A DNA stretch of 64,000 bases from Limnomonas spitsbergensis (Eukaryota; Chlorophyta; Chlorophyceae; Chlamydomonadales). Under the pieces are notes generated by a model. That model saw nothing but the letters and a program-made list of their open reading frames with translations. It searched no databases and was not told the DNA's origin. The stretch lies in assembly GCA_037349105.1 (NCBI GenBank), contig JAYJMM010000121.1, forward strand, positions 754,001 to 818,000. The letters are read 5' to 3'. The stretch's first letter is position 1. Each line of letters opens with the position of its first letter. Shown piece by piece: positions 1 through 64,000 of the stretch. A program made the translations under genes and the position numbers.

Positions 1-3000
1 TCCACACAAACAACTCCACCCCCCGCAGCCCCTTCACCTGCAATACACTGATCATTGCCGTGCTGTACGTCCAGCCGGTCCCACCATCCGCCGCAGGCGC
101 CGTGTAGCCCGGCACACATAGGCCCTTCCCGGCGTTCTTCACCGCCAGCCCGATGTCGTAACGGTCGTCCCCCTCCTGGACCCAAACGTTGCCTGTGATG
201 CGGCCCAGGGTGCGGGGAGCAGCTCCGATACGCTTGGCAGCCTCACCACTGTGCACATATCTGTAAAAAGGGAGGGAGGGTTGATGTTAGCATGGGTATA
301 GCGGGGAGGCACATGGGGTGTGATGCGGCCCAGGGTGCGGGGAGCAGCTCCGATACGCTTGGCAGCCTCACCACTGTGCACATATCTGTAAAAAGGGAGG
401 GAGGGTTGATGTTAGCATGGGTATAGCGGGGAGGCACATGGGGTGTGATGCGGCCCAGGGTGCGGGGAGCAGCTCCGATACGCTTGGCAGCCTCACCACT
501 GTGCACATATCTGTAAAAAGGGAGGGAGGGTTGATGTTAGCATGGGTATAGCGGGGAGGCACATGGGGTGTGATGCTACCCAGGGTTCCGGGAGCAGCTC
601 CGATACGCTTGGCAGCCTCACCACTGTGCACATATCTGTAAAAAGGGGGAAGGGGGAGGAGCAGGTGTGTGTTGCGGCGGCCGAGAAAGCGGGGAGCGGC
701 CCCAATATGTTTGGCAGCCTAAACGCTCTGAACATATCTGTGAAGATGTGTGAAGATGTATGTGTGTGTCTATGTGTGTGAGGGTGTTTAGGGCAGTTGT
801 GGCCTAGGGTGCGGGGAGCAGGGCCAATACGCTCATCGGCCTTGCCACGGTGCACATATCTATATAAACCAGGGGGTGGGGTGCAGGGTGGGGTACAGGA
901 GGGTGAAGTGGCCTGGGGTGCGGGGAGCAGGGCCAATACGCTCATCGGCCTTGCCACGGTGCACATATCTATATAAACCAGGGGGTGGGGTGCAGGGTGG
1001 GGTACAGGAGGGTGAAGTGGCCTGGGGTGCGGGGAGCAGGGCCAATACGCTCATCGGCCTTGCCACGGTGCACATATCTATATAAACCAGGGGGTGGGGT
1101 GCAGGGTGGGGTACAGGAGGGTGAAGTGGCCTGGGGTGCGGGTAGCAGGGCCAATACGCTCATCGGTCTTGTCACGGTGCACATATCTATATAAACCAGG
1201 GGGGGGGGTGCAGGGTGGAGGACAGGAGGGTGATGTGGCCTGGGGTGCGGGGAGCAGGGCCAATACGCTCATCGGCCTTGCCACGGTGCACATATCTATA
1301 TAAACCAGGGGGGGGGGTGCAGGGTGGAGGACAGGAGGGTGATGTGGCCTGGGGTGCGGGGAGCAGGGCCAATACGCTCATCGGTCTTGTCACGGTGCAC
1401 ATATCTATATAAACCAGGGGGGGGGGTGCAGGGTGGAGGACAGGAGGGTGATGTGGCCTGGGGTGCGGGGAGCAGGGCCAATACGCTCATCGGCCTTGCC
1501 ACGGTGCACATATCTATATAAACCAGGGGGGGGGGTGCAGGGTGGAGGACAGGAGGGTGATGTGGCCTGGGGTGCGGGGAGCAGGGCCAATACGCTCATC
1601 GGCCTTGTCACTGTGCACATATCTATATAAACCAGGGGGTGGGGTGCAGGGTGGAGGACAGGAGGGTGATGTGGCCTGGGGTGCGGGGAGCAGGGCCAAT
1701 ACGCTCATCGGCCTTGTCACGGTGCACATATCTATATAAACCAGGGGGTGGGGTGCAGGGTGGGGTACAGGAGGGTGAAGTGGCCTGGGGTGCGGGGAGC
1801 AGGGCCAATACGCTCATCGGCCTTGTCACGGTGCACATATCTATATAAACCAGGGGGGGGGGTGCAGGGTGGGGTACAGGAGGGTGAAGTGGCCTGGGGT
1901 GCGGGGAGCAGGGCCAATACGCTCATCGGCCTTGTCACGGTGCACATATCTATATAAACCAGGGGGGGGGGTGCAGGGTGGAGGACAGGAGGGTGATGTG
2001 GCCTGGGGTGCGGGGAGCAGGGCCAATACGCTCATCGGCCTTGCCACGGTGCACATATCTATATAAACCAGGGGGGGGGGTGCAGGGTGGGGTACAGGAG
2101 GGTGAAGTGGCCTGGGGTGCGGGGAGCAGGGCCAATACGCTCATCGGCCTTGTCACGGTGCACATATCTATATAAACCAGGGGGTGGGGTGCAGGGTGGG
2201 GTACAGGAGGGTGAAGTGGCCTGGGGTGCGGGGAGCAGGGCCAATACGCTCATCGGCCTTGCCACGGTGCACATATCTATATAAACCAGGGGGTGGGGTG
2301 CAGGGTGGAGGACAGGAGGGTGAAGTGGCCTGGGGTGCGGGGAGCAGGGCCAATACGCTCATCGGCCTTGCCACGGTGCACATATCTATATAAACCAGGG
2401 GGTGGGGTGCAGGGTGGGGTACAGGAGGGTGAAGTGGCCTGGGGTGCGGGGAGCAGGGCCAATACGCTCATCGGCCTTGTCACGGTGCACATATCTATAT
2501 AAACCATGGGGTGGGGTGCAGGGTGGGGTACAGGAGGGTGAAGTGGCCTGGGGTGCGGGGAGCAGGGCCAATACGCTCATCGGTCTTGTCACGGTGCACA
2601 TATCTATATAAACCAGGGGGGGGGGTGCAGGGTGGAGGACAGGAGGGTGATGTGGCCTGGGGTGCGGGGAGCAGGGCCAATACGCTCATCGGCCTTGTCA
2701 CGGTGCACATATCTATATAAACCAGGGGGGGGGGTGCAGGGTGGAGGACAGGAGGGTGAAGTGGCCTGGGGTGCGGGGAGCAGGGCCAATACGCTCATCG
2801 GCCTTGCCACGGTGCACATATCTATATAAACCAGGGGGGGGGGTGCAGGGTGGAGGACAGGAGGGTGATGTGGCCTGGGGTGCGGGGAGCAGGGCCAATA
2901 CGCTCATCGGCCTTGCCACGGTGCACATATCTATATAAACCAGGGGGTGGGTTGCAGGGTGGGGTACAGGAGGGTGAAGTGGCCTGGGGTGCGGGGAGCA

Positions 3001-63594: not shown

Positions 63595-64000
63595 AGGCTC
63601 AGCATCATGACCTGGGATCAGCATCGTGACCTGGGATCTAGGATCAGCATCGTGACCTGGGATCTGGGATCAGCATCGTGAGCTGGGATCTAGGATCAGC
63701 ATTGTGAGCTGGGATCTAGGATCAGCATTGTGAGCTGGGATCTAGGATCAGCATCGTGAGCTGGGATCTAGGATCAGCATTGTGAGCTGAGAACTAGGAT
63801 CAGCACTGTAAGCTGGGATCTAGGATCAGCATCGTGAGCTGGGATCTAGGATCAGCATTGTGAGCTGGGATCTAGGATCAGCAGTGTAAGCTGGGATCTA
63901 GGATCAACATTGTGAGCTGGGATCTGGGATCAGGTATCAGCATCGTGACCTGGGATCTAGGATCAGCATTGTGAGCTGGGATCTAGGATCAGCATTGCGA
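63595..64000. repeat. 26-bp minisatellite at the right edge, continuing off the window
   Basis: About 15 units of GAGCTGGGATCTAGGATCAG + CATTGT, with variants, just upstream of the cyclin exon 63504-63572 in transcript order. Confidence 0.93.

Follow-up and report, generated by a model that had tools for sequence, protein, structure and literature searches.

Why the introns of unrelated genes should carry tandem copies of the edges of their own exons is the question raised by a 64,000-nucleotide stretch of nuclear DNA from the green snow alga Limnomonas spitsbergensis (G000:C121:754001-818000; contig JAYJMM010000121.1). This stretch, hereafter the window, holds XRN1 at about 10-34 kb (minus strand; 26 predicted exons) and RACK1 at 39067-45514 (plus strand; 6 exons, full-length protein), both located by spliced protein-to-DNA alignment, together with a cyclin-like gene near 59 kb (minus strand) labelled from a weak Pfam Cyclin_C match. 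An earlier note on this DNA had proposed that these introns grew by repeated duplication across exon-intron junctions. Our analysis points to the following reading, to which we assign a probability of roughly 85%: the pattern is exon (sequence) stuttering, the joint outcome of local tandem duplication that is blind to the junction, purifying selection on the exons and exon-proximal splicing.

We performed a systematic comparison of exon edges with introns in 13 genes modelled by spliced protein-to-DNA alignment, comprising XRN1, RACK1 and 11 models on other contigs (SAHH, two EF2 paralogs, EFTUD2, two CDC48 paralogs, four HSP90-family genes and TCP1). Two of the HSP90-family genes carry the working names GRP94 (L035) and TRAP1 (L036), which may be swapped. 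For XRN1, 17 of the 26 exons in the model served as queries, and the other 9 were set aside as short or poorly conserved; also dropped were one SAHH exon of 5 bp, the exon predicted first in each of EFTUD2, GRP94 and HSP90a, and four TRAP1 exons that were either short or terminal. The EF2a exon-5 donor was shifted 6 nt by hand to agree with EF2b, the HSP90 copies L029 and L030 were excluded from the counts as near-duplicates of L031, and 144 of the 149 model introns were scored. Splice-site copy alignments and a first coverage profile covered 6 of the 13 genes. The genome examined comprises 260,226,709 bases in 124 contigs; the published assembly is described as 260,248,090 bp in 124 contigs, with a GC content of 54.15% and a mean intron of 788 bp, and the same study assigns UWO 241, ICE-L and C. 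eustigma to the clade of this alga (PMC11228838).

Comparison of the outer 36 nt of each exon with 100 dinucleotide-shuffled versions of the same edge revealed, for 54 of 281 edges, copies that lay in the neighbouring intron and on the side expected. Copies on the wrong side were found for 3 of 256 (Fisher p about 2e-13 for right versus wrong), and none of the 281 edges matched an intron of another gene. The proposal that junction copies lie on the intron side of their own exon was thereby borne out, as was the expectation that they stay out of other genes' introns. Exon middles matched their own introns in 6 of 212 cases and other introns in 0 of 115, and 44 of 144 introns carried at least one edge copy. 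Two of the three wrong-side matches come from exons of 50 and 60 bp that were copied almost entire, in XRN1 and EFTUD2; the third has a marginal score and stems from a 180-bp exon whose last 116 nt were copied. Donor edges were positive in 33 of 141 cases and acceptor edges in 21 of 140, a difference that is not significant (p 0.095); a donor excess, if real, would match a splice choice in which the site transcribed first is used first, and is a lead only.

Since the window had been picked for its pattern, genes outside it were counted separately, and these 11 models gave 32/238 edges on the right side against 1/216 on the wrong side. Right-side copies were most numerous in XRN1 (19/33), followed by EFTUD2 (12/30), CDC48a (7/26), CDC48b (5/26), GRP94 (4/22) and RACK1 (3/10), with a single positive each in EF2a (1/20), EF2b (1/20), HSP90a (1/16) and HSP90b (1/26). 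The same test found no edge copy in SAHH (0/10), TRAP1 (0/28) or TCP1 (0/14), 0/52 together. The positive genes sit on eight contigs (C121, C99, C39, C116, C70, C107, C112 and C32). Edge copying is thus widespread but patchy across genes: the generality claimed for the pattern holds on other contigs, and its uniformity does not, 3 of the 13 genes having none.

Although the earlier note knew of no named system that does this genome-wide, the phenomenon has been described from the dot chromosomes of chicken under the name "sequence stuttering", with "exon stuttering" for cases in which the copies take in exon edges (Hron et al. 2026, Genome Biol Evol evag038; PMC12954441). There it was reported for 236 introns in 115 genes, and for 190 of 5,572 annotated dot-chromosome introns (3.4%). 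We also scored the algal introns with the length and bit-score rule as the one filter taken from the chicken study. All 52 matches of at least 42.1 bits lay in the adjacent intron and in direct orientation, with no distal or inverted match among the 52; 26 of 144 introns were positive, and 12 of 119 outside the window. The matches began within 1 base of the exon border in 33 of 52 cases, within 5 in 39 and within 10 in 44, although local BLAST ends may stop early at mismatches.

The likeness between the two systems extends to several features of the chicken description. In both, the outer part of an exon, along with its donor or acceptor, is copied imperfectly, in tandem and in direct orientation into the neighbouring intron, and the exon itself stays intact; under the same bit-score rule, the exon part has a median of 36 bp in chicken and 42 bp in the alga. 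Copies number from one to many, arrays vary between related genes or species, and introns are highly repetitive through local direct expansions (59 of 144 introns in the alga). Coding exons are spared, with 0 of 25,699 algal exon bases in exon-internal repeats and conserved proteins recovered. The differences concern the setting. Chicken stuttering is largely confined to tiny GC-rich chromosomes of a bird, an association that does not count among the three main features of the chicken description, whereas in this green alga it spans the eight contigs of a genome with 54% GC. Stuttered algal introns have a GC of 0.532, compared with 0.508 in the rest and 0.522 in the rest of at least 400 bp. 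The algal proportions of 26/144 or 12/119 introns exceed the 3.4% of chicken, a rough comparison given the small set of conserved genes and the partial filters. The authors of the chicken study found no stuttering in other vertebrates, except for GC-rich gerbil genes (data not shown there), name extensive within-species variation in intron length as a main feature, and put forward possible causes, either replication stress where DNA is GC-rich or forms quadruplexes or else meiotic conversion (PMC12954441). Among the matches listed from the open-licence literature, we found no other use of either term and no report of exon-edge arrays in algae; within those matches, the alga is the first case of stuttering outside vertebrates.

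XRN1 shows the pattern most extensively. Its wrong-side count was 2/32, 14 of its 17 tested exons carried at least one edge copy, and 13 of its 20 scored introns were positive by the chicken criteria, in keeping with the claim that most introns are affected. A long series belongs to the exon at 33010..33072 (all XRN1 features lie on the minus strand), whose 3' edge, with neighbouring intron sequence, recurs in 13 tandem copies within 31482-32943, a count that includes a 98-bp array at 32009-33020; its 5' edge has one copy (33187-33219). When junction-spanning copies of this exon were aligned separately, a GT or GC donor was kept in 8 of 17. Further 3'-edge copies accompany the exons at 34098..34253, in the N-terminal part (one, 33940-33995), 30891..31001 (7, within 29950-30758), 27720..27769 (2, 27402-27639), 26822..26907 (one, 26714-26766), 19227..19339 (2, 18950-19130) and 16331..16436 (3, 16162-16305). 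The 27720..27769 exon is the 50-bp exon whose near-whole copying produced a wrong-side match.

Copies of the 5' edge alone were found for the XRN1 exons at 26184..26297 (2, 26370-26505), 23543..23724 (one, 23896-23950) and 12758..12829 (4, 12922-13368). Both edges were copied at 24478..24607 (3' edge, 4 copies at 24022-24410; 5' edge, one at 24689-24733), 17653..17772 (5' edge, 4 at 17848-18161; 3' edge, 2 at 17430-17576), 11556..11746 (5' edge, 4 at 11818-12221; 3' edge, 2 at 11337-11496) and 13886..14065 (3' edge, 2 at 13589-13792; 5' edge, one at 14146-14196). The first 3'-edge copy of the last of these exons is exact, with 100% identity over 156 bp, an intact donor and an offset of 153. 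Its use as an in-frame extension was ruled out, as it would add a stop.

RACK1 yielded fewer strict positives, with 0/8 edges on the wrong side and edge copies at 2 of its 6 exons. The clearest case is exon 4 (43167..43356, plus strand), whose last codons and donor are repeated in intron 4: seven copies of the 3' edge with donor lie at 43400-44079, and a copy of the 5' edge at 43117-43137. Tandem Repeats Finder (TRF) places an array of roughly 100-bp units at 43301..43963 (plus strand), the first unit of which begins inside exon 4. Exon 5 (44517..44678, plus strand) has two upstream copies of its 5' edge and acceptor at 44296-44447. By self-similarity, the donor edge of exon 3 (41164..41364, plus strand) repeats from 41353 into intron 3 with a 77-bp unit, and its 3' edge scores under the strict cut-off. 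Junction-spanning repeats occur in 4 of 5 RACK1 introns by this looser test and in 1 of 5 by the chicken criteria, so that "most introns" applies to RACK1 only under the looser one. Taking the two genes together, the pattern claimed for at least 20 exons is present, at the lower count of 16 tested exons (22 edges) plus the cyclin-like exon described below. The nearer upstream acceptor copy of exon 5 retains its AG, and its use would add 129 stop-free in-frame bases (44388-44516, plus strand), making it a possible candidate for an alternative isoform. Elsewhere in the genome, G000:C89:859125-878500 contains three 311-aa WD40 open frames at a spacing of about 9.6 kb, with identical match scores to the RACK1 query.

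At the cyclin-like locus, the Pfam Cyclin_C match (E 0.0026, under the Pfam cut-off) was the sole match among 10 open reading frames scanned, and generic cyclin A and B queries produced no reliable cyclin gene model. One exon there, which starts at 59099 on the minus strand (first 90 nt, 59010..59099), has its acceptor and 5' edge copied upstream at 59258..59359 (90%), at 59391..59514 (84%) and, as the most distal copy found upstream, at 59857..59895, all on the minus strand. Two distinct 32-bp tandem arrays lie near this gene, at 61739-62323 and 62576-63100 (18 and 16.5 copies, 97-98% match).

The profile of direct repeats across all junctions bears on how such copies arise. At 141 donors, coverage was 0.214 on either side, for the 40 exon nt before the junction as for the 40 intron nt after it (ratio 1.0, CI 0.77-1.23), and at 140 acceptors it was 0.136 in the exon and 0.144 in the intron (ratio 0.94, CI 0.69-1.21). 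Coverage fell to 0.021 (donor side) and 0.004 (acceptor side) at 80-120 nt into the exon. This profile of the 13 genes contains neither a peak nor a step at the junctions. Equal coverage on both sides suggests that duplication is blind to the junction, and a flat profile is what junction-blind duplication in units of about 100 bp and more predicts; the earlier view of a process acting across exon-intron junctions is thus not supported by the continuous coverage.

Exons and introns differ sharply in what they retain. We found no exon-internal tandem repeat in 25,699 bases of 153 exons from the 13 genes, whereas 27,580 of 80,948 intron bases (34%) lie in direct self-repeats, and this contrast makes the filter visible. 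A duplication across a donor puts the second copy downstream and one across an acceptor puts the extra copy upstream, so an intact exon fixes the side on which copies are found. The strict side rule therefore follows from tandem geometry and the lack of exon-internal duplications. No special process is needed, and we dropped the rule as a piece of biology in its own right.

On this basis, the mechanism we propose would begin with local tandem duplications that occur often and in direct orientation, span from tens to a few hundred bp and disregard exon borders. Duplications within an exon would break the protein and be lost to selection. Those spanning a donor or acceptor could persist if the spliceosome picks the exon-proximal copy, the extra copy then turning into intron, and the resulting arrays would later lengthen or shorten through slippage, unequal exchange or break repair between units.

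Analysis of the copied splice sites is consistent with this scheme. Among 58 donor-spanning and 35 acceptor-spanning aligned copies from six genes, the copied GT was kept at 98 of 116 bases versus 580 of 696 for adjoining exon bases, and the copied AG at 63 of 70 versus 365 of 420 for neighbouring bases; in these genes, selection against copied splice sites was not detected, GT and AG being kept as well as their neighbours. Intact sites remained in 40/58 donor copies (GT or GC) and 28/35 acceptor copies (AG). Of the 18 copied donors that had lost GT or GC, nine belong to a single XRN1 junction holding 17 copies. Among the 68 intact copied sites, use would introduce a stop at 58, and either a stop or a frameshift at 60, which means that the protein requires exon-proximal use in most cases and upholds the earlier suggestion that the copies are tolerated through exon-proximal splicing. 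Such use agrees with the proximity rule, the preference for exon-proximal splice sites reportedly established by Reed and Maniatis in 1986. An assembly artefact is unlikely, given that the copies have diverged, as the 580/696 matching exon bases beside copied donors indicate, and that long reads (L50 33 kb, 63x coverage) underlie the published assembly (PMC11228838).

The stuttered introns are the long ones. Edge matches rose from 0/44 for introns under 200 bp through 4/90, 18/76 and 13/31 in successive length classes to 19/40 above 1 kb, which supports the earlier claim of intron growth. EF2a and EF2b share 93.5% coding identity and CDC48a and CDC48b 88%, with exon structure unchanged within each pair, and just 3 of their 23 introns align at all, over 29-45 bp. 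The junctions bearing edge copies differ between paralogs save for one donor common to CDC48a and CDC48b, the EF2 pair having none in common. Edge copies therefore arose independently in the paralogs. The third intron of both EF2a and EF2b keeps a GC donor (CTG|GCAAGT) although the intron sequences do not align. The EF2 (L010/L011) and CDC48 (L032/L033) genes form well-conserved pairs with members on different contigs and the same exon structure, which suggests larger duplications in the L. spitsbergensis genome.

Three tandem HSP90 copies (L029, L030 and L031; G000:C32, 466-499 kb), spaced about 14 kb apart and 96-99% identical in their main aligned blocks, capture an intron in the course of change. 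The same intron measures 1685, 1445 and 1677 bp and contains 4.6, 3.6 and 4.7 units of 233 bp, a difference of one unit. The array begins 340-377 bp past the donor, with degenerate copies of the exon edge and donor between it and the exon. Together with the paralog differences, this indicates that edge copies are independent and that neighbouring arrays are still changing. For the first two HSP90 stretches, the alignment covers no more of the gene than its 3' part, and about 1.2 kb of additional sequence lies in an intron of one copy.

Three other explanations deserve consideration. A dedicated process that duplicates exon-intron junctions, for instance through splicing-linked DNA damage, R-loops or reverse-transcribed splicing intermediates, would make junctions hotspots of intron growth. 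It could account for the splice-site-containing copies at 20 donor and 18 acceptor junctions in six genes and for the junction-spanning self-repeats of 39/144 introns. Stuttered introns also seem to have somewhat more G-quadruplex-like motifs (raw values per strand of 0.27/0.39 versus 0.19/0.22 in non-stuttered introns of at least 400 bp). The process is nevertheless improbable, as exon edges and adjoining intron are covered equally without a peak, 19 of 144 introns have internal repeats only, and tandem arrays are common, and patchy, in arbitrary genomic stretches too (TRF covers 3-86% of 14 such stretches, each at most 10 kb long, where inverted self-matches amount to 0-3%). The junction hotspot was dropped for want of a coverage peak. 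More improbable still is that selection maintains the copies as alternative exons, or as extensions of exons, that have gone unrecognised. Eight of the 68 intact copied sites extend the frame without a stop, two RACK1 acceptors among them, and the 50- and 60-bp exons of XRN1 and EFTUD2 are copied almost entire; yet the large majority of sites would add a stop or frameshift, the exact 156-bp XRN1 copy is not stop-free, and the copies have diverged, with one stuttered junction in common between the CDC48 paralogs and none between the EF2 paralogs.

We regard it as highly improbable that introners or other interspersed elements made these introns. Unclassified interspersed repeats amount to 22.8% of the published genome (PMC11228838), and green algae are among the fast-evolving lineages in which introners were mainly found (PMC9860276). 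Against an interspersed-element origin (ALTERNATIVES), matches to introns of other genes cover only 1,512 of the 80,948 intron bases and involve 7 of the 149 introns, versus 34% of bases in local self-repeats, and what is copied is an exon edge of the gene itself. Near-identical intron sequence common to unrelated genes, the hallmark of introners, was thus not seen beyond those bases; introners and transposons were dropped as the main source, in agreement with the earlier note. Introners resemble the algal pattern in their large-scale turnover of intron sequence, which is frequent in algae (PMC9860276), and differ from it as interspersed families common to several genes. The potato RdRp gene, in which a tandem duplication over an intron-exon boundary re-used duplicated splice signals (Ma et al. 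2016, PMC4974935), offers another likeness, with the difference that a new intron was made there, whereas in the alga existing introns lengthen and the EF2 and CDC48 intron positions are unchanged.

Several observations weigh against stuttering as we describe it. Three of 13 genes have no copies and four have one each, so something modulates the rate, be it region, expression or intron length. The eight in-frame, stop-free extensions (six acceptors and two donors, in EF2b, EFTUD2, XRN1 and RACK1) are a minority of the 68 copied sites, and a few of them may be real alternative exons. Use of the exon-proximal sites is something we infer from protein conservation. The HSP90 array that changes length holds no exon edge. 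Because the exon side does not decay, detection is mildly biased toward exon edges, and the data would accommodate a slight true bias toward the junction or away from it. Finally, the source lies within 1 base of the border in 33 of 52 algal matches, compared with more than 90% in chicken.

Beyond the genes, the window contains a U5 spliceosomal RNA gene (51767-51873; 73 bits against a gathering score of 40), the surroundings of which are nearly free of tandem repeats (TRF coverage 2% at 48001-56000). The first 9.5 kb consist mostly of very large minisatellite arrays, at 799-4742 and 4878-9529, built from a 109-bp unit repeated 36 times, 27-79-bp and 145-bp units, and 21-63-bp units.

The origin of long introns is an old question for which transposons are the usual answer, and in these introns growth is directly legible, since each copied piece can be placed by the exon it came from. 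The algal case makes a dependence of stuttering on GC-rich microchromosomes less plausible. In Chlamydomonas and Volvox, a survey in G3 found the density of tandem repeats to be highest in introns, with more near intron-exon junctions (PMC3887541); by analogy, relatives may share stuttering, although the repeats in that survey are short motifs and the parts of its text used here make no mention of exon-derived copies. Edge copies of this kind may also be mistaken for exons by gene predictors. In a unicellular alga whose introns carry duplicated splice sites in natural series, the proximity rule, co-transcriptional splice choice and the mutational cause of stuttering would become testable both genome-wide and genetically, which is hard in chicken. 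More tentatively, and with somewhat less than even confidence, we suggest that junction-blind tandem duplication, tolerated through exon-proximal choice, could be the main engine of intron lengthening in L. spitsbergensis and perhaps in other long-intron green algae. Stuttering would then be a way of growing introns that is general among eukaryotes, and not a peculiarity of avian microchromosomes, with introns continually rebuilt from their own exon edges.

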